Of a stretch of 64,000 nucleotides of DNA, positions 9,706 through 52,960 are shown piece by piece. Source of the DNA: Opitutia bacterium (GTDB taxonomy: Bacteria; Verrucomicrobiota; Verrucomicrobiia; Opitutales; Opitutaceae); contig CANGHW010000010.1 in assembly GCA_947453695.1 (NCBI GenBank), forward strand, positions 1 through 64,000, read 5' to 3'. The notes beneath the pieces were generated by a model. It saw nothing but the letters and a program-made list of their open reading frames with translations. It ran no database searches and was not told where the DNA came from. Each line of letters starts with the position of its first letter. Position 1 is the first letter of the stretch. Made by a program: the position numbers and the translations under genes.

Positions 9706-10503
9706 ATGGAACTTACTCAACCCCAGCTTCAAACCTACGAACGAGAAGGGCTCCTGTTTATTCCAGGCCTCTTCGATGATGCGGAAATCGCGTTGTTGCA
9801 GCAGGCCACCGTCGACATCGCCGCCGTCGACCACCCGAGTCGCGTGCTGGAACGCGACGGCACCACGGTTCGCGCGCTGCACGGCTGCCACCTCACCCAC
9901 TCCGTCATGGCCCGCCTCACGCGCCTGCCGCGACTACTCAGGCCGGCCGAGCAGATCATTGGCGGCCCCGCTTACGTTTATCAGTTCAAAATCAATTTTA
10001 AGGCGGCCTTCGGCGGGGATGTGTGGAAGTGGCACCAGGATTATATTTTTTGGGCCAAGGGAGACGGCATGGTCGCACCGCGTTGCGTCAATCTCATGGT
10101 CTACCTCGATGAGGTCACGGAATTCAACGGTCCGCTCATGTGCATCCCACGCTCGCACCATCACGGCATGATCGATGTCGAGGCCGCGCGCGGCAAGGGC
10201 GGTTGGCAGGATAACGTCAGTGCCGATCTGAAATACTCCCTCGACCGGGAGACGATCGCGCGCCTGGTCGGCGAAGGCGGGATCGTCGCGCCGAAGGGTC
10301 CACGCGGCAGCGTCTTGATTTTCCATCCCAATCTCGCGCACGGCTCCACGCCCAATCTCTCGCCGTGGGACCGCACGATGATGATCGTGACCTATAATAG
10401 CGTATCAAACGTGCCGGTGCCGCCGGGTGAGCCCCGCCCGGAATTTCTCGTGAGCCGTGACACCCGCCCGTTGGCGATGGCCGAAGGGGCGCTCACAGGC
10501 TGA
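9706..10503 (+). CDS. Phytanoyl-CoA dioxygenase (PhyH)-family Fe(II)/2-oxoglutarate hydroxylase
   Basis: WHQDYIFW facial-triad HxD, distal H in NLAHGSTPN, overall EctD/PhyH-like; first gene of the NRPS-PKS run. Confidence 0.85.
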   Translation: MELTQPQLQTYEREGLLFIPGLFDDAEIALLQQATVDIAAVDHPSRVLERDGTTVRALHGCHLTHSVMARLTRLPRLLRPAEQIIGGPAYVYQFKINFKAAFGGDVWKWHQDYIFWAKGDGMVAPRCVNLMVYLDEVTEFNGPLMCIPRSHHHGMIDVEAARGKGGWQDNVSADLKYSLDRETIARLVGEGGIVAPKGPRGSVLIFHPNLAHGSTPNLSPWDRTMMIVTYNSVSNVPVPPGEPRPEFLVSRDTRPLAMAEGALTG

Positions 10504-10557
10504 GCGTAGAGGACGGGTCGCACCGCCCGCCTTCGCCTCTCCTGTCGGCTCGCCGAC

Positions 10558-13500
10558 ATGACTCCCGAACAACAAGCCCTCCTCCGCCAGCGGCTCGCGC
10601 AAAAAGGCGTGATCATCGCTCCCCGGGCCGACGACGGCCCGGGCGCGCGACCGGCCGGCGAAGAGGCCCCGCTGTCGTTTGCCCAGGAGCGACTGTGGTT
10701 CGTGCAACAGCTTCAACCGGAGAATACCGCTTACCACCTGGGGCAGGTTTTCACGGTGAAAGGTCCGCTCGTGGTCGCAGCGCTGGAGCGGGCGATGGCC
10801 GCACTGGTCGCCCGGCACGAGAGTTTACGCAGCGCGTTTCCCGAGCGGGGCGGGCGCGGGGGGTGCGCGGTGGCGGCACCGGCGGCGACGGGGCCGCTGG
10901 TCTACACGGATTGCGCGGCGCTCCCGGCGGCGGCGCGGGACGCGGCGGTCGCGGCCCACGAGCACGCGGTGCTCGCCGAGCCGTTTGATCTCGCGCAACC
11001 GACGCTCCTGCGCGCGCGGCTGCTGCGGCTGGCCCCGGAGAATTTCCGTCTGCTGGTGTGCGTGCATCACCTTGTATTCGACGGATGGTCGATCGGGGTG
11101 TTTGTCAGGGAACTGGGCGCGCTCTACGCGGCCTTTGCGGCGGGCGCGTCAGCGTCGCCCCTGCCTGCATCGCCGCTCTCCTACGGCGACTACGCGGCCT
11201 GGCAACGCCGGCGGGCCGGCGGGCCGGCGTGGGCGGCGTCGCTGGCCTTTTGGCAAACGCGCCTGGCCGGCACCCCCGTGCTCGCGCTGCCGACGGATCA
11301 CCGCCGCCCGGCGGCGCTCTCCGGGCGCGGTGCGGGCCACCGTTTCACCGTGCCGGCGGCGGGGGTGGCGGGGGTGCGGGCGCTGGGACTCGCGGAGCGC
11401 GCGACGCCGTTCATGGTTTTCCTCGCCGCGTGGCAGACGGTGCTCGGGCGTTACTCCGGACAGACGGATTTCGCCGTGGGCTCACCAGTGGCGAATCGCG
11501 CCCACGCCGCGCTGGAGAACATGGTCGGCTTCTTCGTGAACATGATCGCACTGCGGGCGGAGCTGGCGGGCGATCCGTCGTTCCGCACGGTGCTGCGCCA
11601 GGTGAACGCCCAGGTGCAGGTGGCCCTTTCGCACCAAGAGACGCCCTTCGAGCAGATCGTCGAACGGCTGAACATCCCGCGCGATCTCTCGCACCATCCG
11701 GTGTTCCAAGTCGGCTTCACCTTGCAGAACGCGCCGGTCGAGCCGGTGCGGCTCGCGGGGGTGGAGTTTGCGCCGGTGGAGCCAGAGATCGCGGCGGCGA
11801 AATTCGATCTGCTGCTGGCGCTCGAAGACGCGCCGGATGGAGCGATGCGCGGCACGTTGGAATACAGCACGGACCTCTTCGCCGCGTCGACGATGGAACT
11901 GCTGGCGGAAAATTTCCTCACCCTGCTCGCCGGCGCGACCTCCGCCCCGGACACGACGCTGTCGCGCCTGCCGCTGGTCTCGGCCGCCGAGCGCGCGCTC
12001 TGGCCCGCACCGGCTGCGCCGCGGCCGGAGCCGCCCGGCTGCGCGACGCTGGTCGAGTGGTTTGGCACCAGCGCAGCCCGGCATGCGGAGCGAACAGCCG
12101 TGACGGACGGCACCGTGACGCTGACTTACGCCGAGCTGGACGCGCGCTCCGACCGCCTCGCGAATTTCCTCGTGGGCCACGGTGCCGGGCCCGACCGCCT
12201 CGTCGCGGTGGCGATGGAACGCTCGGCGCACGTGCTCGTCGCGCTGCTGGGCATCCTCAAAGCCGGGGCCGCCTACCTGCCGATCGATCCCGCCTATCCG
12301 GCTGAGCGGCAGGAGTTCATGCTGCGCGACGGGGCGGCGGTGGTCTTGCTCACCGACGCCGCGCGCCGCGCCGCGGTGACGACGCCGGCCGGCGTGCCGG
12401 TGTTTTGTCTGGACCGCGACTGGCCGGAGATCAGCGCCGCCGCGCCGGTGTCGCGTCCCGGGAACGAACCGGAGCACACGGCCTACGTGATCTACACCTC
12501 GGGCTCCACGGGACGGCCCAAAGGCGTGCCAGTGACGCACCGCAACGTCACGCGGCTCTTCACGCAGACGGACCACTGGTTCGGCTTCGGTCCCGCCGAC
12601 GTATGGACGCTGTTTCACTCGTTCGCATTCGATTTCTCCGTGTGGGAAATCTGGGGCGCGCTCCTCTACGGCGGACGGCTCGTCGTCGTGCCGTTTGCGG
12701 TGAGCCGGGCGGTGGACCGTTTTCACGACCTGCTGGCGCGCGAAGGCGTGACGGTCCTGAGCCAGACGCCCTCGGCCTTCCGGCAACTCGTGAACCACGA
12801 CACGGCGCTGCCGTCCGTGCGTCCGCTGGCCCTCCGCTGGGTCGTGTTTGGCGGGGAGGCGCTCGATCTGCCCGTGCTGGCGCCGTGGTTCGCGCGGCGG
12901 GGCGACCGCACGCCACGCCTCGTGAACATGTATGGCATCACGGAGACGACCGTGCATGTGACCTACCGTGAAATCACGGCGGCGGATGTGGCGGCCGGAA
13001 CGGGCAGCGTGATCGGCGAACCGATCCCGGATCTGACGCTGCATCTGCTCGACGCGCACCTCGCGCCGGTGCCGCGCGGAGTGGCGGGCGAAATTTTTGT
13101 TGGCGGGGCGGGCCTGGCGCGCGGCTATCTGAACCGGCCCGAGCTGACCGCCGAGCGCTTCATCGCCCATCCGTTCGCGGCGACGACGGGCGGACGGCTC
13201 TATCGCTCGGGCGACTCGGCGCGGCGGCTGGCCAATGGCGACGTCGAATATCTCGGACGCATCGATTTTCAGGTGAAAGTGCGCGGCTTCCGCATCGAGC
13301 TCGGCGAAATCGAATCGGCGCTCGGCGCCCATCCGGCGATCGCGGAAGCGGCGGTCATCGCGCTGCGCGCCGCGGACGGAGCCACACGGCTCGCCGCGTG
13401 GCTCGTCGCCCGCGACGGGGCGGAGCCCGGCATCGAGGTGCTGCGGCGCCACCTGCTCGCCTCCCTGCCCGACTACATGGTGCCGGCGGCGTTTACCTTT

Positions 13501-16500
13501 GTCGCGCAGCTGCCGCTGACGACGAACGGAAAAGTGGACCGCGCGGCGCTGCCCGCGCTCACGGGGCGGCGGGCTGAAGCGGTGGCCGAACGAATCGCGC
13601 CCGAGACCGAGCCCGAGCGGTTGCTCGCCGCCGTCTGGCAAAAGGTGCTCGGGGTGCCGGCCGTCGGCGTGACGGAAAACTTTTTTGCCCTCGGCGGAGA
13701 CTCGATCCGCAGCATCGAGGTGCGCGCGGCGGTGCGCGCGCGCGGTTACGATTTTCAACTGCAGGAATTGTTTCGCCACCAGTCGGTGCGCGAACTGGCG
13801 GCGGTGCTGGTGCCGCTGGCCGAGACGGCGGCGGCGGTGCCGGGTGCGTTTGCGCTCATCGCGGCGGCGGACCGGGCGCGGCTGCCCGCCGACGTGGTCG
13901 ACGCCTATCCCCTCGCGGCTTTGCAGGCGGGCATGGTGTTCCACTCGGAGCTCAATCCCGCCTCGCCGGTGTTTCACGATCTCTTTTCGTATCATCTCCG
14001 GGCCTCGTGGGACGAGGCGGCGCTGCGCGCGGCGCTGGCGGCGGCGGTGCGACGCCATCCGATCCTGCGCACCTCGGTCCGCACGGCCGGCTTCGGCGAA
14101 CCGCTCCAATGCGTCCATGCGCACGCCGTCGTGCCGCTCGATGTCGCGGACATTACGGCGCTCGATTCCGCCGCGCAGGAGGCGGTGCTGGATGCCTGGT
14201 CCGTCGCCGAGAAAGCGCGGGGCTTCGCTTGGAGCGAACCACCGCTCATGCGAGCCGCCGTGCACCGGCGCTCGGCGACGACGTGGCAGTTTTCTCTGAG
14301 CCTGCACCACGCGATCCTCGACGGGTGGAGTGTCTCCGCGCTGCTGGCGGAAATTTTCACGGCGTATTTGGAAACGCTCGCGGGCCGGACGCCCCCGGTC
14401 GCGGCGAGCGCGCCGGCCCCGTTTCGGGACTACGTCGCGCTGGAGCGGGCGACGGTGGCGTCGGAGGAATCACGCGCGTTTTGGGCGGTGCAGCTGGACG
14501 ATCCGCCGGCGGCGCAACTGCCGCGCGTGCCGGCCCGGGCCGGTGCGACCGAAGCGGGCCAAGACGCAGTGTTTGTGACGTGGCCGCGGGAGCGCACGAC
14601 GGCGCTGGAGGGTTTCGCCGCGCGCGCGGGCGTCTCGCTCAAGCACGCGCTGCTGGCGGCGCACGCGAAAGTCGTCGCGCACCTCGCCGGCACGCGCGAG
14701 GTAATCACGGGCGTGATCTCAAACGGCCGGCCGGAAACCGCGGGTTCGGCGGAATCGCTCGGGCTGTTTCTTAATACCGTGCCATATCGGCTCGCCGTGG
14801 CGCCCGGCACCTGGAGTGACCTGGCGCGTGCGGTGCTGCGCAGCGACGAAGCGGTTTTGCCGCACCGCCGGTTTCCGCTGGCGGAGCTGCAAAGAAACCG
14901 CGGGCGCGCGGCGCTGTTCGAAACCTCGTTCAACTTTGTGCGCTTCCGCGTGCTGGATGCGCTGCGGGCGCGCGGGGATATCGCGGTGTTGGGCACGCGG
15001 TATTTCGACCAGAACACCTTCGCCTACTTCGCGCAATTCAGCGCGGATTCGGCGGAAGGGACGCTGCAACTTGAGCTGCGCTACGATCCGGCGGAGTTTA
15101 CGCGCGAACAGGCCGTCGCATTTGCCGCGACTTACGAACGGGTGCTGGCGGCCATGACCGGCGCGTCGGAGACCCGGCACGAAACGCTGGAGCTGCTCGG
15201 GACCGAGGAGCGGCGGCGCGTCGTGGAAACGTTTAACTCCCCTCCCCTGCCCCCCGGCGCACCCCGACTGCTCCACGACGGCCTGGCGGAGAACGTGAAG
15301 CGCGCACCGGACGCGATCGCCCTGATCGACGGAGAGGTGCAGTTGACCTACGGCGAACTCGCGGCGAGCGTCGGGACGTGGGCCCGGCGGCTCCGCGCGC
15401 TCGGGGCGGGACCGGAGAAACTGGTCGGCGTGTGTCTGGAGCGCAGTGCGGATTTGGTCACGGCTTTACTCGCCGTGCTGGAAACGGGCGCGGCCTACGT
15501 GCCGCTCGACCCGGCCTATCCGGCGGACCGCCTCGCGTTCATGTGCGAGGACGCCCAGGTGGCCATTCTGGTCAGCCGCCGCGAGCTGGCGGCGCGGCTG
15601 CCCGCGGGCGGCTGGACGCTGCTCGACCCGGCGGAACTCCGCGCGCTGCCGCCGGCGGCGACCGGGGAGACGGCAGTGACGGCCGGCGCGCGGCCGGAGA
15701 ACCTCGCCTATCTGATCTACACCTCGGGATCCACGGGGCGGCCGAAGGCGACCGCGATCGAGCACCGGCAGGCCACCGCGCTGATCGCGTGGGCGCGCGC
15801 CCACTACACGGACGCGCAACTGGCGGGCGTGTTGTTTTCCACCTCCGTGTGTTTCGATCTCTCGATCTTCGAGCTCTTCGTGACGCTCGCGGCCGGGGGC
15901 AAGATTATCGTCGCAGAAAACGCGCTCGCGCTCCCGACGCTGCCGGCGCGCGCGGCCGTGACGCTCGTGAATACGGTGCCCTCGGCGGCGGCCGAACTCG
16001 TGCGCCAACGCGCCCTGCCCCCCGGTGTGCGCACGGTGAATCTCGCGGGCGAGCCGCTCTCGGCGACGCTCGCCGACCAGATCCACGCGTTCGGGACCGT
16101 GGAAAAACTCCACGATCTCTACGGCCCCTCGGAAGACACCACCTATTCGACCTGCGCGGAACGCCGGCCGGGCGGAGCGGAAACCATCGGACACGTGCTG
16201 CCGGGCTCGCAGCTGTATCTCCTCGACGAGGATTTTCAGCCGGTGCCGCTCGGGACCGTCGGGGAAATCTTTCTCGGCGGAGCGGGACTGGCGCGCGGCT
16301 ATCTCGGCCGGCCGGACCTCACGGCCGAGCGCTTCCTGCCCAATCCGTTTGCCACGCAGCCGGGCGCGCGCCTCTACCGCACGGGCGACCTGGGGCGGTT
16401 TCGCGCCGACGGACAGGTCGAGTTTCTCGGGCGGCGGGATCACCAGGTGAAGATCCGCGGCTTCCGCATCGAGCTCGGCGAAATCAAAGCGGTGCTGGAA

Positions 16501-18393
16501 AAACATCCGGCCATCGCGGCCGCTGCGGTGGTGGCGCGGGAAGACGTGCCCGGGGTCAAACGGCTGGTCGCGTATGTGGCAGGACCGGCGCTACCGACGG
16601 GACGCGCCCTCGACGGCGAGTTGCGCGCGTGGCTCGGGGCGCGATTGCCGGAATATTTTGTGCCGGCGGCCTTCGTGCCGCTCGCCGCGCTGCCGCTGAC
16701 GCCGAACGGCAAGCTGGACCGCCGCGCGCTGCCGGCACCGGCCGAAGCGGTGGCGGCAGCGGACGACTATACGGCGCCGCGCACGGCGGAGGAAACGGCG
16801 CTCGCGCGGATCTGGGCGGAGGTGTTGCGGGTGCCGCGCGTGGGGGTGCACGACAATTACTTCTCGCTCGGCGGCGATTCGATCCAGGTTCTGCAACTCG
16901 TCGCGCTCGCGCGGGAGGCGGGGCTCGGGCTCACGCCGCGCCTTATTTTTGAACAGCCAACCGTGGCGCAGCTCGCCCTCGCGGCGACGGCGACAACGGC
17001 GGCAGTGCCGGCGGCGGCGGCGGAAGAGGAACCGGGGGCGGCGTGGGCGCTCACGCCGATCCAGCGCTGGTTTTTTGCGCAAGGCTTCACCGAGGAGCAC
17101 CACTGGAACCAGTCGGTCTTGCTCACGGCGCGCGAGCCGCTCGACGCGGCGAAGTTGGCCAGCGCGTTGCGCGCAGTGACGGCGCGGCACCCGCTGCTGC
17201 GGGCGCGTTTCACAGCAGAGAGCGGCGGCGCGCGGGTGTTGCGGATCGCGGAGCCGAGCGCGGGCGACGTCGCGTTTCGGGTGGTGCCGTTTGCGACGGC
17301 GGCCGAAATCACGGCGGCGTGTGCGGCGGAGCAGGGAGCGCTGGATCTCGCGCACGGTCCGCTCGTGCGGGCGCTGTGGCTCGACGGCGGTGCGACGCAA
17401 CCCGGCCGACTGTTCATCGTGATTCACCACCTGGTGATCGACGGGGTGTCGTGGCGCATCGTGCTGGACGATTTGCTGGCGGCGTATCGCGGTGCGGCGG
17501 CGCTGCCACCGGCGACGGCGTCGTCGGCGCGATGGGCGCGATGGCTGGGCACGTTCCTCTGGGCCGAGGAGGCGGCGCACTGGCAGGCGTTGGCGGCGGC
17601 ACCGGCGGTGCGGTTGCCGCGAGATTTGGACGGGACGGAAAACCGGGCGGGCGACGCGGCCATTTGCGCGGTGACGCTGACTCCGACGGAGACGGAGGGA
17701 CTGCTGCGGCGCGCGCTCTCGGCCTATAGTTGTCAAATCAATGACCTGCTGCTCGCCGCGCTGGCGCTCGCGCTCCGCGAGTGGACGCGTGCGGAGGCCA
17801 TCACCCTCCATCTCGAAGGACACGGGCGCGAAACCGCCGAGACCGGGATCGAGCTTGGGCGGACGGTGGGATGGTTTACGACATTGTTCCCGGTGCGGCT
17901 CGATTTGAGCGGCGTCGCGACTGCGCCGGCGGCGGTGACCGCCGTGCGCACGCAACTCGCCGCCGTGCCCCGGCGCGGGCTCGGTTACGGCGCGGGGCGG
18001 TGGCTGGCACAGCCGCCGCGCTGGGACGTGCCGGCGGCGGAGTTGTGTTTCAATTACCTGGGGCAATTCGACGGGTGGGTGGGCGGGGACAGTCCCTTTG
18101 GGCCGGCGGAAGAAAGCGTCGGGCCGCAGACGAGTCCGCGCGGGGAACGCGCGCACCTGATCGACGTTAACGGACTGATCGTCGGCGGGGCGTTGAAGTT
18201 TGAATGGCACTACGGCACGCGGCTCCACCGGAGGGAGACGATCGCGCGGCTCGCCGACGCGCATTTCGCCCACCTGCGGACGCTGATCGCGGCGGCCGGC
18301 ACGACGGCGGCAGAGCCGACGACGGAGCGCTTCGCGCTCGCGGGGGCGACGGACGCGGAGCTTGACCAGGCGATCGGGGAAATCGAATTCTGA
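10558..18393 (+). CDS. NRPS: C-A(DFWSVGMVHK, Thr-like)-T-C-A(DLFNNALTYK, Ala)-T-E
   Basis: C motifs HHLVFDGWS and HHAILDGWS; A-domain YTSGSTGRPKG twice; T motifs GGDSI twice; E domain HHLVIDGVSWRI, EGHGRE, GWFTTLFPV, FNYLGQ. Confidence 0.95.
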   Translation: MTPEQQALLRQRLAQKGVIIAPRADDGPGARPAGEEAPLSFAQERLWFVQQLQPENTAYHLGQVFTVKGPLVVAALERAMAALVARHESLRSAFPERGGRGGCAVAAPAATGPLVYTDCAALPAAARDAAVAAHEHAVLAEPFDLAQPTLLRARLLRLAPENFRLLVCVHHLVFDGWSIGVFVRELGALYAAFAAGASASPLPASPLSYGDYAAWQRRRAGGPAWAASLAFWQTRLAGTPVLALPTDHRRPAALSGRGAGHRFTVPAAGVAGVRALGLAERATPFMVFLAAWQTVLGRYSGQTDFAVGSPVANRAHAALENMVGFFVNMIALRAELAGDPSFRTVLRQVNAQVQVALSHQETPFEQIVERLNIPRDLSHHPVFQVGFTLQNAPVEPVRLAGVEFAPVEPEIAAAKFDLLLALEDAPDGAMRGTLEYSTDLFAASTMELLAENFLTLLAGATSAPDTTLSRLPLVSAAERALWPAPAAPRPEPPGCATLVEWFGTSAARHAERTAVTDGTVTLTYAELDARSDRLANFLVGHGAGPDRLVAVAMERSAHVLVALLGILKAGAAYLPIDPAYPAERQEFMLRDGAAVVLLTDAARRAAVTTPAGVPVFCLDRDWPEISAAAPVSRPGNEPEHTAYVIYTSGSTGRPKGVPVTHRNVTRLFTQTDHWFGFGPADVWTLFHSFAFDFSVWEIWGALLYGGRLVVVPFAVSRAVDRFHDLLAREGVTVLSQTPSAFRQLVNHDTALPSVRPLALRWVVFGGEALDLPVLAPWFARRGDRTPRLVNMYGITETTVHVTYREITAADVAAGTGSVIGEPIPDLTLHLLDAHLAPVPRGVAGEIFVGGAGLARGYLNRPELTAERFIAHPFAATTGGRLYRSGDSARRLANGDVEYLGRIDFQVKVRGFRIELGEIESALGAHPAIAEAAVIALRAADGATRLAAWLVARDGAEPGIEVLRRHLLASLPDYMVPAAFTFVAQLPLTTNGKVDRAALPALTGRRAEAVAERIAPETEPERLLAAVWQKVLGVPAVGVTENFFALGGDSIRSIEVRAAVRARGYDFQLQELFRHQSVRELAAVLVPLAETAAAVPGAFALIAAADRARLPADVVDAYPLAALQAGMVFHSELNPASPVFHDLFSYHLRASWDEAALRAALAAAVRRHPILRTSVRTAGFGEPLQCVHAHAVVPLDVADITALDSAAQEAVLDAWSVAEKARGFAWSEPPLMRAAVHRRSATTWQFSLSLHHAILDGWSVSALLAEIFTAYLETLAGRTPPVAASAPAPFRDYVALERATVASEESRAFWAVQLDDPPAAQLPRVPARAGATEAGQDAVFVTWPRERTTALEGFAARAGVSLKHALLAAHAKVVAHLAGTREVITGVISNGRPETAGSAESLGLFLNTVPYRLAVAPGTWSDLARAVLRSDEAVLPHRRFPLAELQRNRGRAALFETSFNFVRFRVLDALRARGDIAVLGTRYFDQNTFAYFAQFSADSAEGTLQLELRYDPAEFTREQAVAFAATYERVLAAMTGASETRHETLELLGTEERRRVVETFNSPPLPPGAPRLLHDGLAENVKRAPDAIALIDGEVQLTYGELAASVGTWARRLRALGAGPEKLVGVCLERSADLVTALLAVLETGAAYVPLDPAYPADRLAFMCEDAQVAILVSRRELAARLPAGGWTLLDPAELRALPPAATGETAVTAGARPENLAYLIYTSGSTGRPKATAIEHRQATALIAWARAHYTDAQLAGVLFSTSVCFDLSIFELFVTLAAGGKIIVAENALALPTLPARAAVTLVNTVPSAAAELVRQRALPPGVRTVNLAGEPLSATLADQIHAFGTVEKLHDLYGPSEDTTYSTCAERRPGGAETIGHVLPGSQLYLLDEDFQPVPLGTVGEIFLGGAGLARGYLGRPDLTAERFLPNPFATQPGARLYRTGDLGRFRADGQVEFLGRRDHQVKIRGFRIELGEIKAVLEKHPAIAAAAVVAREDVPGVKRLVAYVAGPALPTGRALDGELRAWLGARLPEYFVPAAFVPLAALPLTPNGKLDRRALPAPAEAVAAADDYTAPRTAEETALARIWAEVLRVPRVGVHDNYFSLGGDSIQVLQLVALAREAGLGLTPRLIFEQPTVAQLALAATATTAAVPAAAAEEEPGAAWALTPIQRWFFAQGFTEEHHWNQSVLLTAREPLDAAKLASALRAVTARHPLLRARFTAESGGARVLRIAEPSAGDVAFRVVPFATAAEITAACAAEQGALDLAHGPLVRALWLDGGATQPGRLFIVIHHLVIDGVSWRIVLDDLLAAYRGAAALPPATASSARWARWLGTFLWAEEAAHWQALAAAPAVRLPRDLDGTENRAGDAAICAVTLTPTETEGLLRRALSAYSCQINDLLLAALALALREWTRAEAITLHLEGHGRETAETGIELGRTVGWFTTLFPVRLDLSGVATAPAAVTAVRTQLAAVPRRGLGYGAGRWLAQPPRWDVPAAELCFNYLGQFDGWVGGDSPFGPAEESVGPQTSPRGERAHLIDVNGLIVGGALKFEWHYGTRLHRRETIARLADAHFAHLRTLIAAAGTTAAEPTTERFALAGATDAELDQAIGEIEF

Positions 18394-21400: not shown

Positions 21401-22413
21401 CGCTGCTGGCTACCCAGGTTGTCGCCCGGGTGCGGGCGGCGGGCAAAACGGAAATCCCGCTGCGGTTGCTCTTCGACCAACCGACGCTAGCTGGGTTTGC
21501 GGCGGGCGTGCGAGCGGCGCGCACGGGCGGGAGCGGAGCGGACGAAGCACCGATCACCGCGCGGCCGAGGGATGCGGCGGTGCCGCTCGCGACGGCGCAG
21601 CAACGCATGTGGGTCCTGGCCCGGCTGGCGGACCTGGGGGCAGCGTATCATGTGCCGACGGTGCTGGAGGCGCGTGGCCCGCTGGACGTGGGGCGGCTGG
21701 AGCGGGCACTCAACGCGGTGGCGGCGCGGCACGAAAGTCTGCGCATGACGTTTTCCGCGACCGACGGACGGGCGGAGGCGGTCGTGCACGCGACAGTCGA
21801 CGTGACCCTGACGACGGTGGACCTCACGAACCGGCCGGCGGCGGAGCGCGTCGCGGAGGCGCGGCGTCGCGCCGCGGCGGAGGGTGCACGGGCCTTCGAT
21901 TTGGCGCGCGGGCCGTTGTGGCGCGCGGCGGTATTCAAACTGGGCGAAGACCATCATTGGCTCCTGTTGACGGTGCATCACATCGTAACTGACGGGTGGT
22001 CGGAGTCGGTGCTGGTGCGGGAGCTCGCGGCGATCTACGCCGGCGGCGAACCGGCACCATTGAAACTCAATTACGGCGACTACGCGGTGTGGCAGCGCGG
22101 GCGCGTCGCGGCGGGCGCGGTGGCGGCGCAGGTGGCGGCCTGGGCGGACGAGTTGCGCGGCGTGCCGGCGCTGGAGCTGCCCACGGACCGGCCGCGGCCG
22201 GCGGTGGCGGGGTATCGCGGGGCGCTGGCGCGCGGATCGGTGGCGGCGACCACGGCGGGCGCGTTGCGGGACCTGGCCCGGCAGGAGGCGCGACGGTGTT
22301 CATGGTTTTGCTCGCGGCGTGGGAAGTGTGGCTCTGGCGGCACACCGGGCAGACCGATTTTGCGGTCGGCACCCCGGTGGCGGGACGCACGCGGCCGGAG
22401 TGGGAGCCGCTGA
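18403..22413 (+). CDS. NRPS (5' part of a frameshifted gene): C(DCL-like)-A(DLFNNALTYK, Ala)-T-C(N-lobe)
   Basis: RHHLLLDGWS, YTSGSTGRPKA, GGHSL, HHIVTDGWS; reading frame breaks near 22287 and ends in out-of-frame residues. Confidence 0.93.
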   Translation: MAKKDIEDVYPLTPLQEGLLFHAILSPGDGAYHDQFSAVLRGPLDADVLLRAWRTVTAGHAIFRTAFAWQTGKAPLQVVGRTAEAPAVQLDWRATDAAGRERLKRELIADDARRGFDPAKAPLTRLTLARTADDAWFLLWSRHHLLLDGWSLAHVMREWLAAYQALRAGRPVAPTQARPFRDYLAWLQRRDAARAEAFWRTELGDFSQPTPLGLALPPESPAPAAGERHGELTLALSAGETEALRALARQARVTLATVFQGAWALLLARLGGERDVVFGNTVSGRPPDLPGAETMVGLFINTLPLRARLAPAAKLGEWLRALQARVMAAREFEFTPLVKIQGWTEVARDRPLFETLLVFENYPVDEALAGGLGELRVEDTHSHERTHYPATMIVAPGSVITLVMLHDRARLPDERATRWLGYFRALLAACAVGPEQAVGGLHGLVGAERTRATEQPAELAHDRTATLHGLVAAQVLRTPGAVALIDGGRRLSYADVARRATALAARLRAHGAGPERCVGVCLERGAELVIALLGVLETGAVYVPLDPTYPADRLGFMFADAELAALVTQRSLAETLPAHAVPTVWSDEDAPADPAAPAAVTVRPENLAYLIYTSGSTGRPKATAIEHRQAVALVHWAQAVFTPRELAGVLFSTSVCFDLSVFEIFVTLASGGAVIVAENALALPALPARDEVTLINTVPSAAAELVRQEAIPRGVVTINLAGEPLTAVLADRLYASAAVERVYDLYGPSEDTTYSTCALRVRGETATIGRVIANSRLYLVDADFQPVPAGAVGEIVLAGEGVARGYLGRPDLTAERFVPDPFSPTPGGRLYRTGDLARTRADGQLEYLGRSDHQIKIRGFRVELGEIQSRLEAHPAVAEAAVVAREHAQRGKYLAAFVAAKPGAALTAEMLTRWVGVTLPHYMQPTAWHLVETLPRTPNGKLDRKALPADEETTTAAAADRPAERNDDPITEIVAGIWAQVLGVARVRPEDNFFDLGGHSLLATQVVARVRAAGKTEIPLRLLFDQPTLAGFAAGVRAARTGGSGADEAPITARPRDAAVPLATAQQRMWVLARLADLGAAYHVPTVLEARGPLDVGRLERALNAVAARHESLRMTFSATDGRAEAVVHATVDVTLTTVDLTNRPAAERVAEARRRAAAEGARAFDLARGPLWRAAVFKLGEDHHWLLLTVHHIVTDGWSESVLVRELAAIYAGGEPAPLKLNYGDYAVWQRGRVAAGAVAAQVAAWADELRGVPALELPTDRPRPAVAGYRGALARGSVAATTAGALRDLARQEARRCSWFCSRRGKCGSGGTPGRPILRSAPRWRDARGRSGSR

Positions 22414-43994: not shown

Positions 43995-46900
43995 ATGATT
44001 TCTCCCGCCCCCGGTTCCCTTGATCCCGCCAAACACGTTGCCATCGTCGGCATGCAGCTCCGTTTCCCGGGTGCCACGACGCTCGCGGAATTCTGGCAAA
44101 ACCTGCGCAACGGGGTGGAGTCGATCCAGTTTTTCACCGAAGAGGAATTATTGGCGGCGGGCTTTCACGCCGGGCTCTTGCGCAATCCGGCGTTTGTCCG
44201 GGCGAATCCGAATCTCGGAGACACGGCGGGCTTCGATCCCGCGTTTTTCGGCTTCACGCCGCGCGAGGCCGAGGTGATCGATCCGCAAATCCGGCTGATG
44301 CTGGAGTGCTCGTGGTGCGCGCTGGAAGATGCCGGTTGGGAAGCGGACCGGTTTCCGGGCCGCATCGGGGTGTTCATGGGGGCGAACATCAGCAATTATT
44401 TCATGGCAAATTTGCTGCCGCAGATCGAGGAGCTGACGGCCGGACAGGGCGAGATCTCGGCGCTGACGTTGTTCAACGACCGCGATTCGCTGGCGACAAT
44501 CGTCTCCTATAAACTGAATCTCAAGGGGCCGAGCGTAACGGTGCAGACGTATTGTTCGACGTCGCTCGTGGCGGTGCATCTCGGCTGTCAGAGTCTGCTC
44601 GGCGGCGATTGCGAGATGGTGCTGGCCGGCGGAGTGTCGTTGAACAACGAAGCGGTTGCGGGTTACACCTACACCGAGGGCGGCATCAAGTCGCAAGACG
44701 GACATTGCCGGACCTTCGACGCGGCGGCGAGTGGCACGGTCTTCGGCAACGGTGTCGGCGTGGTCGTGTTGAAACGGCTCGACCGCGCGCTGGCCGACGG
44801 CGACACGATCCACGCGGTTATCCGCGGTTCGGCGATCAACAACGACGGCGCGATCAAGGCCGGCTACACGGCGCCGAGCGTGCAGGGTCAGATCGAATCC
44901 ATCTCGGCGGCCATCGCGCGGGCGGACGTCGATCCGGAGACAATCGGCTTCGTCGAGGCGCACGGCACGGCGACGCTGGTGGGCGATCCGATCGAGGTGA
45001 CGGCGCTGACGCAGGCGTTTGACGCGGCGGGCGCGAAGCGGCGGCAGTATTGCGCGCTGGGTTCGGCGAAGACCAATTTCGGACACCTCGACCGGGCGGC
45101 GGGCGTGGCGGGGCTGATGAAGACGGCGCTGACGGTGCGCGAAGGCCTGATCCCGCCGTCCCTGCACTATGTGCAGGCCAATCCGAAAATCGATTTCGAG
45201 AGCAGTCCATTTTTCGTTAATACGAAGCTGCGCCCGTGGGAAAGTCAGGGCGGGCCGCGGCGCGGGTTGATCTGCTCGCTGGGCGTCGGAGGGACGAACG
45301 CTCACGCGATCGTCGAGGAGCCGCCGGCGCGCGCGCCGTCCGGGCCGTCGCGACCGGTGCAGTTGGTCGTCGTGTCGGCGCGCTCGGAGAGCGGACTCGG
45401 CGCCGCGACCGACCAGCTGGTGAAATTTTTGAACCAGAATCCGGATGTGCCGCTGGCGGACGTAGCCTTCACGCTGCAGAATGGCCGGAAGGTTTTCAGT
45501 CAGCGGCGGATCGCGGTGGGGCGCGACGCGGCAGAGATCGTGGCGGCGCTGGAAGGGCGGGCCGCGGGGCAGAGCCACTCGGGCGCGGCGGCGGGCACGA
45601 AGCGGCCGGTGGCATTCATGTTTCCGGGGCAGGGCGCGCAGTATGTCGGCATGGGGCGCGAGCTCTACGAAGGTGAAACGGTGTTTCGCGCCGAAGTGGA
45701 CCGCTGCGCCGCAGTGTTGCGTCCGTTGCTCGGGCTCGATCTGCGCACGGTGATTTATCCGGCGCCGGCGGCGGCGGCGGGAGCGGCGGAACAGCTGAAA
45801 CAAACGGCGCTGACGCAGCCGGCGTTGTTTACCGTCGAATACGCGCTCGCGCGCCTGTGGCAGAGCTGGGGGGTGCAACCCGAGGCAATGATCGGTCACA
45901 GCATCGGAGAATACGTGGCGGCGACGCTCGCGGGCGTGTTTGCCGTCGAGGACGCGTTAGCCCTGGTGGCAGCGCGCGGGCGGTTGATGCAGAGTTTGCC
46001 GGCCGGCGAAATGTTGGCGGTGCCGTTGCCGGAGTCGGAAGTGCTGCCCCTGCTCGGGGTGGAGCTCTCGCTCGCGGCGGTCAATGCGCCGGCGAGCTGC
46101 GTTGCATCGGGGCCGGCGGCGGCGGTGGCGGCGCTGGAGCGGGCGTTGCAGGCGAAGGGCGTCGAAGCGCGGCGGTTGCAGACCTCGCATGCGTTCCACT
46201 CGCGCATGATGGATCCAATTCTGGCAGAGTTTACCGCGTTGGTAGCGAACGTGAAACGCAGCGCGCCCACGCTGCCGTATATTTCGAATCTCACGGGCAC
46301 ATGGGTCACGGCGGCGCAGGCGACGGATCCGGCTTATTGGGCGCAGCACTTGCGCGGCGCGGTGCGGTTTACCGACGGCGTGGCGGAGCTGCTCAAGAGC
46401 GGCACACGCGTGGCCCTTGAAGTCGGGCCAGGCCGGACGCTCGCGACGCTCGCGCGGCAGCGGCCGGAGCTGGCGGCGCAGGGTGCGGCGATCACGACGT
46501 TGCGGCACGCGCAGGAAAAAACATCGGACGCGGTGCACGTGCTGGGGGCGCTGGGTAAACTCTGGATCGCGGGCGTCGAGATCGACTGGACCGGCTTTTC
46601 GGCGGGCGAGCAGCGGCGGCGCGTGCCACTGCCGACGTATCAATTCGAGCGGCAACGTTATTGGGTGCAACAGAAGGCGATCGCACTCCCATCGGCGGGG
46701 GCGGCGGCACCGGCGGCGTTTGTGCGGCATGCGGATTTGGCGGATTGGTTTTACGCGCCAGTGTGGCGCGAGACGCCGGCGGCGGCGAGCGCGGCGACGG
46801 CCGGCAACCAGTGGCTGGTGCTGGCGGATGCGGGTCCGCTGCGCGACGCACTGGTGACGCAGCTGCGCGCCGAAGGCCGGCAGGTGACGCTGGCGGAGAC

Positions 46901-49900
46901 CGGCGCGGCGTTCTCCCTGGTGGACGACGGACACTATGTGCTCGACCCGTCAAAGAAGGACGAGATCGCGATGTTGTTTTCGCTGCTGCGGGGCGAGCAA
47001 CGCTGGCCGGACGTGATCGTGCACGCCTGGACCGAGCAGCCGGCCGCAGGCGCGGCGTTGGCAAATTTTGAACGAACGCAGGCGCGCGGTTTTCACAGCC
47101 TGCTCGCACTGGCACAGGTGTTGGGCGACGAAAATCTGACCCAGCCGCTGCGGCTGGGCGTCGTGACCAACCGGATGCAGAGCGTGACCGGCGAACCGAT
47201 CGTCGGGCCGGAGCGGGCGACGGTGCTCGGGCCATGCAAGGTGATCGCGCAGGAATATCCGGAAATTGCGAGCGCGGGCATCGACGTGGCCGGAACGCCG
47301 GCCGAGATGGCCGCGGCGGTGCTCGCCGAACTGGGTGCCGTGCCACGCGAGCCCGTGGTGGCATGGCGTGGGGCGACACGTTTCGTCCAACAGTTCGAAG
47401 CGCAACGCCTCGGGGCGCCGGGTGCGAAGGTCCCACTATTGAAGACCGGTGGAGTTTACCTGATCACGGGCGGACTCGGGGGCATCGGACTGAAAGTGGC
47501 TGAGTGGCTCGCGCGGACGGTGCAGGCGAAGCTTGTGTTGACCAATCGTTCGGCATTGCCCGCGAAAACCGAATGGGCGGCGTGGGTGAAAACTCACGGT
47601 GCGGAGGACCGCGTGAGCCGGCGCATCGCGAGCGTGCAGCAGCTCGAGGCGCTGGGGGCGGAAGTGTTGCTCACGACGGCGGACACGGCAGATCTCGCCG
47701 CCATGAGTGCGGCGGTAGCGGAGGCACGCGCGCGTTTCGGCAGGATCGACGGCGTGATGCACGCGGCCGGTGTCGCGGGCGACGGCGTAATCCAATTGAA
47801 GGAAAAGAAAACGGCGGCGGGGGTCATTGATGCCAAGATCAAGGGCGCGCTCGTGCTCGAAGCCGTGCTCAAGGATACTCCGCCGGATTTCGTGGTGCAC
47901 TACTCGTCGATCGCCGCGGTGGTCGGCGGCTTCGGCCAAGTGGACTACTGCGGGGCAAACTCGGGGCTCGATGTGCTCGCGCGGGCGGCGACGCTCGCCG
48001 GCGGGCCGACGACAATTTCGATCAACTGGGACGCGTGGTCCGAGGTGGGCATGGCGGTCGAGACGGTGGCGCGGCCGAAGGCGGCGGCGGCCGCGAAATT
48101 GGCGGCGGAGTTCAAGCCGGTGGAACACCCGTTGTTCCAGCGCTGCCGAATCAAAGGCGACGTGATCGAATACGTCGGGACGTTTTCAACGGAAGGGCCG
48201 TGGTTGATCACGGACCACGAACTTTTCGGCAAGCCGACACTCCCGGGCACCGCGTATCTGGAGCTGGTGCGGGCAGCGTTTGCGCGACACGTCACGGCGG
48301 AGAGCTACACCTTTTCGGACATGTATATCCTCGCGACCTTTTCAGTGGAGCCGGGACAACCGCGGGAACTGCACACCGTTTTGACCAAGGCCGGGGATGG
48401 ATACGAGTTTACGGTAAAGAGTCTCGCCGCCCCTGGCACGGACGAATGGGTGGAGCACTCGCGCGGCACCATCACACCCGGCACGGACCGGCCGCAGCAG
48501 ACGCATGATCTGGCGGCGATCACGGCGCGCTGCAAAGGGGAGTTTCACGATCTAAAGGCGGCGGACAACATCGTCCCCGGCGAACTGCGCCAGCAGGCCG
48601 GCCATCTGCGGGTGGGCGCGCGCTGGATGACGCCCGACTGGGTCCGCATGGGCGAACTCGAGGGCACCAGCAGTCAGCGCCTCGCCGACGCCTACGTGGG
48701 GGATCTCGCGATGCACCCGTTGCATCCCGGCATGCTGGATTTGACCGCATTTTTCCCGTTCAAGGCGGTTGGAGTGAATGTGCCGTTCTCGCACCGGGTG
48801 GTGCACGTCTACGGCCCGCTAACGCCGCGCATCCAGAGCACAATCAAACAGCACGACGACATGATGGCGGACCGCCAGACGTTGAATTTCGACGTTTGGT
48901 ATTGCGACGAGGCGGGTCGCGAGCTCGTGGTGTTCGAAGATTATCTATTGAAACGCGTCGGAGCGCGCGGCGCGCCGCAAGGCGAAGCCGACCGCTTTCC
49001 GTTTCTGCCGGGCGCGGAAAACTTCCAGGTCAATATGGCAGCCCTCGGCGAACTCGACACCCTCGCGCCCGCACCGTGCGCGCGCGTGGAGCCGGGCGAA
49101 GGGCAGATCGAAGTGCAGATGCATGCGGCCGGCCTGAACTTCAAGGACGTGCTGCGTGCGCTCGGCATGTTGTCGTCGGATCACGATGCCGGTCTAGCAA
49201 TCGGCTTCGGCGGCGAAGGCGCGGGAGTCGTGGTGCGCACCGGACCGGGCGTCACGGAGTTTGCGCCGGGAGATCGCGTAATCGTGATGGGCTCGAAGTG
49301 CTTCGCCGGTTTTCTGACGGTGCCGGCGCAAGCGGCGGCGCCGTTGGTGGACGGCGTGGGCTTCGAGGATGCGGCGACCATTCCGCTCGTGTTTCTCACC
49401 GCGCACTACGCCCTGCACGTGCAGGGCCGGCTGGCGAAGGGCGAAAAAGTGCTCATCCATGCGGCGGCGGGCGGCGTGGGGCTGGCCGCGATCCAATGTG
49501 CGCAACGCGTCGGCGCCGAAGTTTTTGCAACGGCGGGCAGCGCGCAAAAACGCGACTACGTAAAATCGCTCGGCGTGAAGCACGTCTTCGATTCACGATC
49601 GTTGTCGTTTGCGGACGATGTAATGAAGGCGACGGGCGGGCAGGGAGTGGACGTCGTCTTGAATTCGCTCGCGGGCGAATTCATCGCGAAAGGCCTCGGT
49701 GTGCTCACGCAGTTCGGACGTTTCCTCGAAATCGGTGCGCGCGACATTTACCAAAACAGCCAGCTCGGACTGCGGCCGTTTGCGAACAACCTCTCGTTTA
49801 TGGCCATCGAACTCGGGCCGGTGATGCTGCGACGACCGGCCTTCGTGCGGGAGATGCTCAACGAGATCATGGGCTATTTCCGCACGGGGCAGTTCAAGCC

Positions 49901-50516
49901 GCTGCCCAAGGAAGTGTTCGCGATCAACGACGTGGCATCGGCCTTTCAAACGATGGCCGGAGCACGACACATTGGAAAACTCGTCCTTGCCATCACACCG
50001 CCGGCGCGGGCGATCCACGTGGCGCCGGGCGCGCGGTCGACGGCGGCCGCAGCGCAGGGCAGCGCGACGGCGGATTCGATCAGCCCGCGGGAGGGCATCG
50101 AGGCGCTCGCGCGAATTTTGGCGGCAGCGCCGGCGCAGATGGTCGTGTCGCCGCGACCGCTGCAGCCGATCATCGATCACGTGCGTGGCCAGTCGAAGGC
50201 GGCTGGCGGTCCGACGGCGGAGGCGCCGAAACCGTCCTCGCGCAAACGTTACCCCCGTCCCGCACTGGGGAACGCCTACGTAGCGCCGCGCAACATCATC
50301 GAGACCCAGCTGGCCGAAGCGTGGCAGAGCTTCCTCGGCATCGAGCAGGTAGGGGTGCAGGACAACTTCTTCGAGTTAGGCGGAGATTCCTTGATCGGCG
50401 TGCAGGTCTTGTCCGGCGTGAAGAAGGAATTCGACGTCAAGCTCCCCGCGGCGTCGCTTTACGAAGGTCCGACAATCGAGGCGCTGGCAATGGCCGTGGA
50501 GGCGGCCAAGAAGTAG
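43995..50516 (+). CDS. Type I PKS, fully reducing: KS-AT-KR-DH-ER-ACP
   Basis: KS TYCSTS/EAHGTAT/KTNFGH; AT GHSIGE + HAFHS; KR TGGLGGIG; DH HELFGKPTLP; ER HAAAGGVGLAAIQ; ACP GGDSL. Start trimmed to ATG 43995. Confidence 0.95.
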   Translation: MISPAPGSLDPAKHVAIVGMQLRFPGATTLAEFWQNLRNGVESIQFFTEEELLAAGFHAGLLRNPAFVRANPNLGDTAGFDPAFFGFTPREAEVIDPQIRLMLECSWCALEDAGWEADRFPGRIGVFMGANISNYFMANLLPQIEELTAGQGEISALTLFNDRDSLATIVSYKLNLKGPSVTVQTYCSTSLVAVHLGCQSLLGGDCEMVLAGGVSLNNEAVAGYTYTEGGIKSQDGHCRTFDAAASGTVFGNGVGVVVLKRLDRALADGDTIHAVIRGSAINNDGAIKAGYTAPSVQGQIESISAAIARADVDPETIGFVEAHGTATLVGDPIEVTALTQAFDAAGAKRRQYCALGSAKTNFGHLDRAAGVAGLMKTALTVREGLIPPSLHYVQANPKIDFESSPFFVNTKLRPWESQGGPRRGLICSLGVGGTNAHAIVEEPPARAPSGPSRPVQLVVVSARSESGLGAATDQLVKFLNQNPDVPLADVAFTLQNGRKVFSQRRIAVGRDAAEIVAALEGRAAGQSHSGAAAGTKRPVAFMFPGQGAQYVGMGRELYEGETVFRAEVDRCAAVLRPLLGLDLRTVIYPAPAAAAGAAEQLKQTALTQPALFTVEYALARLWQSWGVQPEAMIGHSIGEYVAATLAGVFAVEDALALVAARGRLMQSLPAGEMLAVPLPESEVLPLLGVELSLAAVNAPASCVASGPAAAVAALERALQAKGVEARRLQTSHAFHSRMMDPILAEFTALVANVKRSAPTLPYISNLTGTWVTAAQATDPAYWAQHLRGAVRFTDGVAELLKSGTRVALEVGPGRTLATLARQRPELAAQGAAITTLRHAQEKTSDAVHVLGALGKLWIAGVEIDWTGFSAGEQRRRVPLPTYQFERQRYWVQQKAIALPSAGAAAPAAFVRHADLADWFYAPVWRETPAAASAATAGNQWLVLADAGPLRDALVTQLRAEGRQVTLAETGAAFSLVDDGHYVLDPSKKDEIAMLFSLLRGEQRWPDVIVHAWTEQPAAGAALANFERTQARGFHSLLALAQVLGDENLTQPLRLGVVTNRMQSVTGEPIVGPERATVLGPCKVIAQEYPEIASAGIDVAGTPAEMAAAVLAELGAVPREPVVAWRGATRFVQQFEAQRLGAPGAKVPLLKTGGVYLITGGLGGIGLKVAEWLARTVQAKLVLTNRSALPAKTEWAAWVKTHGAEDRVSRRIASVQQLEALGAEVLLTTADTADLAAMSAAVAEARARFGRIDGVMHAAGVAGDGVIQLKEKKTAAGVIDAKIKGALVLEAVLKDTPPDFVVHYSSIAAVVGGFGQVDYCGANSGLDVLARAATLAGGPTTISINWDAWSEVGMAVETVARPKAAAAAKLAAEFKPVEHPLFQRCRIKGDVIEYVGTFSTEGPWLITDHELFGKPTLPGTAYLELVRAAFARHVTAESYTFSDMYILATFSVEPGQPRELHTVLTKAGDGYEFTVKSLAAPGTDEWVEHSRGTITPGTDRPQQTHDLAAITARCKGEFHDLKAADNIVPGELRQQAGHLRVGARWMTPDWVRMGELEGTSSQRLADAYVGDLAMHPLHPGMLDLTAFFPFKAVGVNVPFSHRVVHVYGPLTPRIQSTIKQHDDMMADRQTLNFDVWYCDEAGRELVVFEDYLLKRVGARGAPQGEADRFPFLPGAENFQVNMAALGELDTLAPAPCARVEPGEGQIEVQMHAAGLNFKDVLRALGMLSSDHDAGLAIGFGGEGAGVVVRTGPGVTEFAPGDRVIVMGSKCFAGFLTVPAQAAAPLVDGVGFEDAATIPLVFLTAHYALHVQGRLAKGEKVLIHAAAGGVGLAAIQCAQRVGAEVFATAGSAQKRDYVKSLGVKHVFDSRSLSFADDVMKATGGQGVDVVLNSLAGEFIAKGLGVLTQFGRFLEIGARDIYQNSQLGLRPFANNLSFMAIELGPVMLRRPAFVREMLNEIMGYFRTGQFKPLPKEVFAINDVASAFQTMAGARHIGKLVLAITPPARAIHVAPGARSTAAAAQGSATADSISPREGIEALARILAAAPAQMVVSPRPLQPIIDHVRGQSKAAGGPTAEAPKPSSRKRYPRPALGNAYVAPRNIIETQLAEAWQSFLGIEQVGVQDNFFELGGDSLIGVQVLSGVKKEFDVKLPAASLYEGPTIEALAMAVEAAKK

Positions 50517-50546: not shown

Positions 50547-50975
50547 ATGAGCACAAGCTACGAACGAACGGTGCGGTTTTCCGAAGTGGATGGCGCCGGG
50601 TTTTTATTTTTCGCCAACTACCTCGTGCTCTGTCACGAAGCCTACGAGGCAAGCTTGGCCAACGCCGGGATCGAACTGCGGAAATTTTTCGGCGAGCACC
50701 GCGTGCTGATCCCGATCAGCAAGGTGACGGCACAATATCTAGGCCCGCTCCAGAGCGGGGACCGCGTGCGGATCGAAGTGTTGCCGCAACCGAACGGCGA
50801 CAACTCGTATGGTATTTCCTACCGCATCGTGCACCTCGGCGCGGCCGAGAAACTCGTGGGCATCGCGCGCACGGATCACACGGTGATCGATATCCAAACG
50901 CTGGTGCGCAAAGCGCTGCCGGCGCCGCTGGCCGAGTGGATTCGCAGCGCGGGAGGCGCGTCGGCCGCGTCATGA
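50547..50975 (+). CDS. Hotdog-fold (4HBT) acyl thioesterase
   Basis: RTVRFSEVDGAGFLFFANYLVLCHEAYEASL; ~140 aa; adjacent to the terminal PKS. Confidence 0.85.
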   Translation: MSTSYERTVRFSEVDGAGFLFFANYLVLCHEAYEASLANAGIELRKFFGEHRVLIPISKVTAQYLGPLQSGDRVRIEVLPQPNGDNSYGISYRIVHLGAAEKLVGIARTDHTVIDIQTLVRKALPAPLAEWIRSAGGASAAS

Positions 50976-52960
50976 CCGTCCTCGGCCTTTCCGGCGGCAT
51001 TGATGCCGCACACGCCAACGACCATGCCGTGCGGTTCGACAATATCCACGACGCGGCCGCCGTCCTCGTGCGCGACGGCCGAGTGCTGGCCGCGGTAGAG
51101 GAAGAACGGCTCAACCGGATCAAGCACACCAACAAAGCCCCGCACGGCGCAATCCGCCGCTGCCTCGCCCTCGCAGGCAGTCGGCCCGAAGACGTAGATG
51201 CGGTGGCGTTCTATGCGACGGAGCCGTATGTGCAGCGCGTGCTGGCGATGCTGCACCTCGGAGATTTTTCGCAAAAGGAACTGCTGACGCCACGTGGCTA
51301 CGTGCAAAAAATGTGGCGGACGGCGCTCGGGTGCGAACTGGACCCGGCGAAGATTTTTTTCGTGGACCACCACACGTGCCACGCCGTAAGCGCGTTTGCC
51401 ATGGCAGGATTCGATGCCGCGCTCGTGGTGAGCCTCGACGGCCAGGGCGAGGGCATTTCGGGCACGATTTGGGAGGGCCACGGCCGCGAGCTGAAGCTGC
51501 GGCAGAAATTCGGCGAAGCCGACTCGCTGGGTTTTCTCTACCGTGACGTGATCCGGTATCTCGGCTACGAGATGTTCGACGAATACAAGGTCATGGGCAT
51601 GGCGCCCTACGGCGACGCGACGCGGTATCGGGAGTTATTCAAGACGTTCTACGAGCTGCTCCCGGAGGGAAACTACCGGTTGCACCTTGACCGGGTGCCC
51701 GCGCTAATGCGTGTGACGCGACCGCGCCGCAAGGGCGAGGCGTTCGGCGAAACCCATCAACACATCGCCGCCGCCCTGCAAGAAGCGGTGGAGAAAATCG
51801 GGCTGCATGTGCTGGCGCATTGGCGGCGAGCGACGGGAAAAACTAATCTGTGCCTCGTCGGCGGAGTGGCGCATAATTGCTCGTTGAACGGTCGCGTGCT
51901 CTACGCCGGGCTCTTCGAAAAAGTCTTTGTCCAGCCTGCCGCCCACGACGCCGGCTGCGCGCTGGGTGCGGCGCTCGCGACGCAGCTTGCGCGTGCGCCG
52001 CAGTCGGCCGTCGAGGCGCTCACGCACGTTTACTGGGGCAGCGAGACCGGGACCGACGTTGAGATCGCAGCCGAACTGGCGGGGTGGTCGAACTTCGTGA
52101 CGGCCGAGCGCTGCGACGACATCGTGGCGCGCGCGGCGGATGAGCTCGCGGCGGGTAAGGCGATCGGCTGGGTGCAAGGGCGCGCCGAGTTCGGCCCACG
52201 TGCCTTGGGGAATCGCAGCATTTTGGCCGACCCCCGCCCGGCGGAAAACAAGGATATCATCAACCGCATGGTGAAAAAGCGGGAAGCATACCGGCCCTTT
52301 GCGCCCTCGGTGCTCGCGGAAAAGGTCGATGACTATTTTGTCACAACGCCAACGCAGAAAGAGTTTCCCTCGATGAGCGTGATTCTCGACGTGCGGCCCG
52401 AGTGCCGCGCGTTGCTCGGCGCGATCACCCATGTAGACGGCACCGCGCGGGTGCAGACAGTCGCGCGCGCGACAAACCCGCGCTACTGGGAACTGATCCG
52501 GGCCTTCGGCGAACGGACAGGCGTGCCGATGCTCCTGAACACGTCGTTCAACAATCACGCGGAGCCCATCGTGGACTCCGTGCAGGACAGCATCGTGTGT
52601 TTTCTAACGACCGATCTGCATGCGCTCGCGGTTGGCGATTGGCTCGTGAAAAAGCGCGAGCCCGCCCCGGAAGCGTGGCTGGCGCGGCGAATCGGATTGC
52701 CCGTAACGGTGGCACTCACGCGGGCGCGACGCTGGACGAGCGGAACCGAGCAGGAGTGGGTGCGCGAGGCGCGCTTCACGTATCACCACGGGAAGACCGC
52801 GAAATTGTCGGAGTCGATTTTCGCCGTGCTCGGTGCGGCGGACGGGCACGCGACGCTTGCTGACCTCGGAGCCAAAGCCGGCCTGGACCGCGCGGCAACG
52901 CTCGCGCTCGTGCCGGAGCTGCGGGAGCTGTGGAGCAACCGTATGGTCGTGCTAGCGTGA
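50972..52960 (+). CDS. O-carbamoyltransferase (NodU/CmcH/TobZ family)
   Basis: MTVLGLSGGIDAAHANDHAVRF, FFVDHHTCHAVSAF, LVGGVAHNCSLNG, GRAEFGPRALGNRSILADPR, LLNTSFNNHAEPIV. Confidence 0.93.
   Translation: MTVLGLSGGIDAAHANDHAVRFDNIHDAAAVLVRDGRVLAAVEEERLNRIKHTNKAPHGAIRRCLALAGSRPEDVDAVAFYATEPYVQRVLAMLHLGDFSQKELLTPRGYVQKMWRTALGCELDPAKIFFVDHHTCHAVSAFAMAGFDAALVVSLDGQGEGISGTIWEGHGRELKLRQKFGEADSLGFLYRDVIRYLGYEMFDEYKVMGMAPYGDATRYRELFKTFYELLPEGNYRLHLDRVPALMRVTRPRRKGEAFGETHQHIAAALQEAVEKIGLHVLAHWRRATGKTNLCLVGGVAHNCSLNGRVLYAGLFEKVFVQPAAHDAGCALGAALATQLARAPQSAVEALTHVYWGSETGTDVEIAAELAGWSNFVTAERCDDIVARAADELAAGKAIGWVQGRAEFGPRALGNRSILADPRPAENKDIINRMVKKREAYRPFAPSVLAEKVDDYFVTTPTQKEFPSMSVILDVRPECRALLGAITHVDGTARVQTVARATNPRYWELIRAFGERTGVPMLLNTSFNNHAEPIVDSVQDSIVCFLTTDLHALAVGDWLVKKREPAPEAWLARRIGLPVTVALTRARRWTSGTEQEWVREARFTYHHGKTAKLSESIFAVLGAADGHATLADLGAKAGLDRAATLALVPELRELWSNRMVVLA

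Follow-up and report, generated by a model that had tools for sequence, protein, structure and literature searches.

The window, i.e. the whole stretch of 64,000 nucleotides that was analysed (G000:C10:1-64000), belongs to a genome of 6.38 Mb in 356 contigs, that of an uncultured member of the Opitutaceae, and carries an unbroken block of genes at 9706-52960, all of them on the + strand (Table 1). The earlier note had described this block as comprising seven A domains, two E domains, three PKS modules, a hydroxylase, a hotdog thioesterase and a carbamoyltransferase, all of which were recovered by Pfam searches, the whole-protein E-values of the core domains ranging from 1e-36 to 1e-226 and thus lying far below chance. 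The ten-residue codes that had been read by eye proved to be identical for all seven A domains when recomputed from the alignment, and both E domains, located behind modules 2 and 4, possess the EGHGR motif. The residues predicted module by module (Thr, D-Ala, Ala, D-Gln, an aliphatic residue that is unassigned, Ser and Leu) were retained, as were the predicted hydroxylation and O-carbamoylation, each at the level of the single module, while the proposed two beta-hydroxy ketides and one fully reduced ketide agree with the domain content of the PKS modules.

Table 1. Features of the assembly line in the genome of the window (contig C10 unless stated otherwise).
Location	Strand	Predicted feature	Remarks
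9706-10503	+	PhyH-type Fe(II)/2OG amino-acid hydroxylase, GriE-like	Pfam PF05721, 1e-31
10558-18393	+	NRPS N1: C-A(Thr, DFWSVGMVHK)-T-C-A(Ala, DLFNNALTYK)-T-E	
18403-22413	+	NRPS N2, broken: C-A(Ala, DLFNNALTYK)-T-C (first half of C domain)	frame lost near 22286
21996-26054	+	NRPS N2 continued, other frame: C (second half)-A(Gln-like, DAWQFGLIQK)-T-E	true coding from ~22286
26051-32416	+	NRPS N4: C-A(aliphatic, unassigned, DAWLIGAVVK)-T-C-A(Ser, DVWHISLVDK)-T	
32413-35721	+	NRPS N5: C-A(Leu, DAWFLGNVVK)-T	
35718-38966	+	PKS K1: KS-KR-ACP, no AT	likewise in G031, G006, G152
38963-43369	+	PKS K2: KS-AT-KR-ACP	AT catalytic His replaced by Gln
43995-50516	+	PKS K3: KS-AT-KR-DH-ER-ACP	AT intact, malonyl-type HAFH motif; no thioesterase
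50547-50975	+	Hotdog (4HBT) thioesterase, DHNA-CoA hydrolase-like	release candidate
50972-52960	+	O-carbamoyltransferase, GdmN/NovN type	Pfam PF02543/PF16861
68974-80672 (right end)	-	Starter part: end of first AT, LLM-KR-ACP, KS-LLM-KR-ACP, Pro-like C-A-T	
Right end of contig C18		Starter part: divergent C-A-T and FAAL-ACP-KS-AT	

Searching with the carbamoyltransferase and scanning named genomes revealed close homologues in three MAGs of the Opitutaceae/Opitutae: G031 (C37, CALFNN010000037.1), G006 (C104, CANHJG010000104.1) and G152 (C213, JABIRI010000337.1). G006 belongs to the same genus as the window's genome, G031 and G152 to other genera of the same family. In G031 a single contig carries, on one strand, a starter section, a C-A-T module, PhyH, N1-N5, K1-K3, the thioesterase and the carbamoyltransferase, and a further C-A-T diverges from the FAAL. 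The starter section of G031 consists of FAAL-ACP-KS-AT-LLM-KR-ACP and KS-LLM-KR-ACP (FAAL, fatty acyl-AMP ligase; LLM, luciferase-like monooxygenase), followed by the Pro-like C-A-T, and the contigs of G152 are consistent with this order. The A codes are alike across the genomes except for N1 of G006, which has a Ser code instead of Thr. In G038, a member of the same order and of another family, the starter, the Pro-like module, PhyH, N1-N5 and the carbamoyltransferase were found as well; its Leu module terminates in a thioester reductase, the carbamoyltransferase comes immediately afterwards, and K1-K3 are absent there.

Modules 3 and 4 contain the domains previously claimed for them; however, they do not form one open frame, since a 1-base frameshift near position 22286, which had been missed, splits the C domain of module 4. 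The frameshifted N2 was left unmended and its two pieces were searched separately. In G031, G006 and G152 the orthologous frame runs unbroken over 2555-2569 aa. In sequence, the C domain behind Thr falls among those preceded by an E domain, and Thr may be dehydrated or epimerised; in the laxaphycins such a C domain has been proposed to form dehydrobutyrine (PMC8471579).

The genome of the window also encodes the starter section, divided between the right ends of contigs C10 and C18, which meet with about 40 bp between them when aligned to G031. On C10 this section is found 16 kb past the carbamoyltransferase, on the opposite strand and facing it. The genes at 57.7-69 kb are colinear with 12.5-25 kb of the G031 contig and, as judged from this gene order, are chromosomal backbone. 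We consider it probable that the locus represents the downstream, larger part of one long hybrid lipopeptide assembly line. Against this single-line reading stand the position of the two halves in the window's genome, 16 kb apart and convergent, the frameshift in one NRPS gene and a Val-like C-A-T that has no place in the line.

The copy in the window's genome could instead be a decaying pathway, frameshifted and split by rearrangement, whose production has ended. The lesion in module 4, the separation of the halves and the defence/toxin-antitoxin-like island upstream of PhyH fit such a decay. It seems unlikely, however, since this lesion is the only one in 43 kb and the remaining domains retain their motifs, and since the genes are under purifying selection relative to G031. 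Moreover, the Pro-like module is also absent from the 4 kb examined upstream of PhyH in G006, so that within the genus the split may be old and tolerated, and single-base errors are possible in a fragmented assembly.

The assumption of a self-contained heptapeptide-triketide cluster starting with Thr at N1, as originally proposed, would explain the uninterrupted same-strand block and the finding that nothing NRPS-like lies directly upstream of PhyH in G000. It is nevertheless very unlikely: N1 opens with a C domain, so that an upstream donor is expected, the starter PKS and an eighth, Pro-like module directly precede the same genes in G031 and G152, and the starter section is retained in the window's genome and in G006. 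The limits 9706-52960 are consequently too narrow, and the free-standing Thr-initiated product was abandoned, the wrong molecule having been predicted from a cluster cut at the edges of the window.

The island just upstream of the block (615-2763 and 4200-6583), where the relatives have the start of the assembly line, includes a C5 DNA methyltransferase, a NO-VEIN nuclease-like protein (PADLOC candidate PDC-S36), a PIN protein and nucleotidyltransferases (DUF6036; PDC-M05A). On the other side, the genes at 57236-63641 encoding a decarboxylase, PrmC-like and SAM methyltransferases and a transporter were rejected as cluster genes because G031 has them on the other strand, at a distance of 16-22 kb from the carbamoyltransferase and with other genes in between. 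Among them, a 1034-aa protein (60537-63641) with a transporter-like N-terminal part and a C-terminal cyclic-nucleotide-binding domain is conserved in G031 at 59%. The 1429-aa ORF directly behind the carbamoyltransferase (52930-57219) was likewise not accepted as a cluster gene, as nothing in the compared 100 kb of G031 matches it; it gave no Pfam or NCBIfam match and looks AsmA/TamB-like by eye alone.

The LLM domains in the starter section are closest in sequence to PuwE (6ket, 343 bits), and they score above the TIGR04020 cut-off. PuwE has been proposed to generate the 2-hydroxy group of puwainaphycin (PMC4219810), and alpha-hydroxylation of an ACP-bound chain by MupA has been shown in vitro (PMC10952193). 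No aminotransferase family was matched in the proteins of the starter section. Neighbours of the divergent C-A-T are a type II thioesterase and an ABC exporter of the cyclic-peptide type, the latter scoring above the TIGR01194 cut-off. This stand-alone C-A-T gene with the Val-like code DAFYLGGTFK, which diverges from the FAAL (G000:C18 57.6-61.1 kb, L002; G031:C37 93.6-97.1 kb), is kept in all four Opitutaceae clusters and has an SPFH protein as a further neighbour. Of 200 genomes in the family, four carry the divergent C-A-T at 65% identity or more, and the same four carry PhyH at 80% or more.

The A domain of the eighth module has the code D[VA]H[VI][IT]THVVK, which we take to resemble proline codes (DVQxIAHVVK). 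PhyH adjoins this code in five versions of the cluster and also in an otherwise different cluster of another genome (G084), and because of this recurrence it most likely serves the eighth module. In a PDB profile search PhyH reached 304 bits with the unnamed dioxygenases 7e01/7dzz, 297 bits with GriE (5nch) and 163 bits with EctD, while in the alignment, at 252-256 bits, GriE and 7e01/7dzz are equal. Leu and Pro are the candidate substrates, and the code of the partner A domain is Pro-like. The similarity to 5nch extends over the full length, and the iron triad H-x-D...H (HQD at 110-112 and H212) is invariant in the four orthologues. A function as halogenase was ruled out by the intact HQD; ectoine hydroxylase was rejected as well, that match being weaker than the one to GriE and under the NCBIfam cut-off.

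The GriE-like match and the same A code alongside it in G084 point to a Pro-derived residue. Presumably this is hydroxyproline made by PhyH, which is preferred over the possible alternative 4-methylproline because no GriF-like Zn-dehydrogenase was seen among the genes of the G031 cluster. 4-Methylproline is supplied in the griselimycin pathway, and A-domain codes do not distinguish Pro from substituted Pro (PMC5676206). The griselimycin/mycoplanecin clusters, with GriE and its relatives, resemble the present one in combining a PhyH-family amino-acid hydroxylase with a neighbouring Pro-like A domain in an NRPS cluster, and differ from it in the GriF-like enzyme of the supply route.

In the PKS tail, where the start codon of K3 was picked by alignment with its orthologues, the AT of K2 reads TSQAFQS and has Gln at a position occupied by His in the AT of K3 and in seven other ATs compared. 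This Gln aligns to the His of the GAAHSH/AAAHSH motif in solved ATs (ZmaA 4qbu, 5yda), the catalytic His of the AT family, and it is present in all four K2 orthologues (G000, G031, G006 and L038, i.e. G152). Between G000 and G031 the dN/dS values of the K2 AT (0.128/0.843) are similar to those of the K3 AT (0.109/0.652), which indicates that the K2 AT is kept rather than decaying and, by this measure, is under purifying selection despite the missing catalytic His. With an AT that is constrained yet lacks its His, it can be tested directly whether neighbouring modules share an AT. A trans-AT PKS was considered in view of K1 and the second starter module, which lack an AT, and rejected as K2, K3 and the first starter module each have one; a free-standing AT was not matched on the contigs scanned. 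The domain order of K3 is unusual. The same order of reducing domains has been reported for the ClbB module KS-AT-KR-DH-ER-T (PMC5490422), a likeness that concerns the domain order alone, the pathway and the organism being unrelated.

Although module order need not follow gene order, K3 lacks a terminal thioesterase and N1 opens with a C domain, we regard it as highly improbable that K1-K3 come first and supply N1 or the Pro-like module with the acyl chain, since N5 is coupled to K1 through a 4-base overlap, a dedicated FAAL is already in place to start the line, and N5 of G038 ends in its reductase exactly where K1 begins here, marking the end of the line.

Judged by its position alone, the hotdog thioesterase probably releases the chain, as no other candidate for this step lies at the end of the line. 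The carbamoyltransferase matches NovN (9s2t) and GdmN (7vyj) in the PDB over the full length (E ~1e-195), sharing with them both carbamoyltransferase domains and including the C-terminal part that TobZ lacks. Whereas GdmN and NovN act on an ansamycin or an aminocoumarin, the enzyme of the window would act on an assembly-line lipopeptide, placing the carbamoyl group on one of the product hydroxyls.

According to the single-line reading, the FAAL would activate a fatty acid and load it onto the ACP, and two PKS modules, each with a flavin monooxygenase of the MupA/PuwE type and a KR built in, would extend the chain and add alpha- and beta-hydroxyls. Handed over across the genomic split, the chain would receive from the NRPS the Pro-derived residue (probably hydroxyproline via PhyH), Thr, D-Ala, Ala, D-Gln, an aliphatic residue, Ser and Leu. 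K1-K3 would then attach three malonate units to the Leu carboxyl, K1 yielding a statine-like beta-hydroxy-gamma-amino unit, K2 a beta-hydroxyl and K3 a fully reduced unit; K1, without an AT, and K2, with an AT lacking the His, would depend on another AT for loading, the simplest choice being that of K3. The chain would be released, probably by the hotdog thioesterase, carbamoylated at one hydroxyl by the GdmN/NovN-type enzyme and carried out by the cyclic-peptide-type ABC exporter encoded near the FAAL. The product is probably a lipopeptide whose acyl chain is polyhydroxylated and whose peptide, (hydroxy)Pro-Thr-D-Ala-Ala-D-Gln-(aliphatic)-Ser-Leu, is followed by a three-module polyketide tail, and it would bear an O-carbamate.

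This architecture belongs to a known class of natural-product pathways. As in the puwainaphycin/minutissamide-type pathways of cyanobacteria, a FAAL and an ACP feed a PKS (FAAL-ACP-KS-AT on C18 and in G031), a PuwE-like luciferase-like monooxygenase is embedded in the line and a long NRPS follows. The aminotransferase domain that gives the puwainaphycin type its beta-amino fatty acid was, however, not detected in the starter proteins, and the line differs further by a second monooxygenase module where that type has one, by a C-terminal end with three PKS modules and a carbamoyltransferase, and by the lack of a cis thioesterase at the end of K3. Literature searches for a matching architecture or pathway returned none. 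The pathway is real and conserved and as yet uncharacterised, and it suggests a new concrete scaffold with a polyhydroxy-acyl chain, a Pro-derived residue, a statine-like C-terminal extension and a carbamate in the Opitutaceae, a bacterial family with few known products.

The two kinds of C-terminal end, the reductase in G038 and the PKS tail in the Opitutaceae, constitute a natural experiment in NRPS terminus exchange. Reductase-terminated NRPS lines yield peptide aldehydes or alcohols; the line of G038 shares everything from the starter to N5 and the carbamoyltransferase with the window pathway, which has K1-K3 and the hotdog thioesterase in place of the reductase. A related PKS block, which includes the sister of the K3 KS, occurs elsewhere in G038 (C47). 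Taken together, the reductase end without K1-K3 and this block with its sister KS suggest that the PKS tail probably replaced the reductive terminus, or the reverse; the block on C47 is a possible source of K1-K3. Our more specific reading is tentative, with the chances slightly against it: the AT of K3 alone might load malonate for K1-K3, with that of K2 as a structural pseudo-AT and the line half-way between cis-AT and trans-AT, in a lineage that would have given the same lipopeptide a PKS tail in place of its reductive terminus.

The C47 block (2-23 kb; L031, L032) comprises a separate C-A-T followed by KS-KR-DH-ER-ACP without an AT, KS-AT-KR-ACP and KS-AT-KR-DH-ER-ACP, the reducing domains being permuted as in K3. 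Relatives of the carbamoyltransferase (L038-L046), most of them 47-68% over the whole length, adjoin NRPS/PKS genes in Opitutaceae, Acidobacteriota, Aminicenantes, Clostridium, Cohnella, Tengunoibacter and Duganella. The luciferase-like monooxygenase family of the starter section also interrupts A domains (A-LLM-A) in a second NRPS cluster of G031 (L034, G031:C48 ~28.7-33.1 kb) and, beside a carbamoyltransferase, in Cohnella (L043, 13411-17436).
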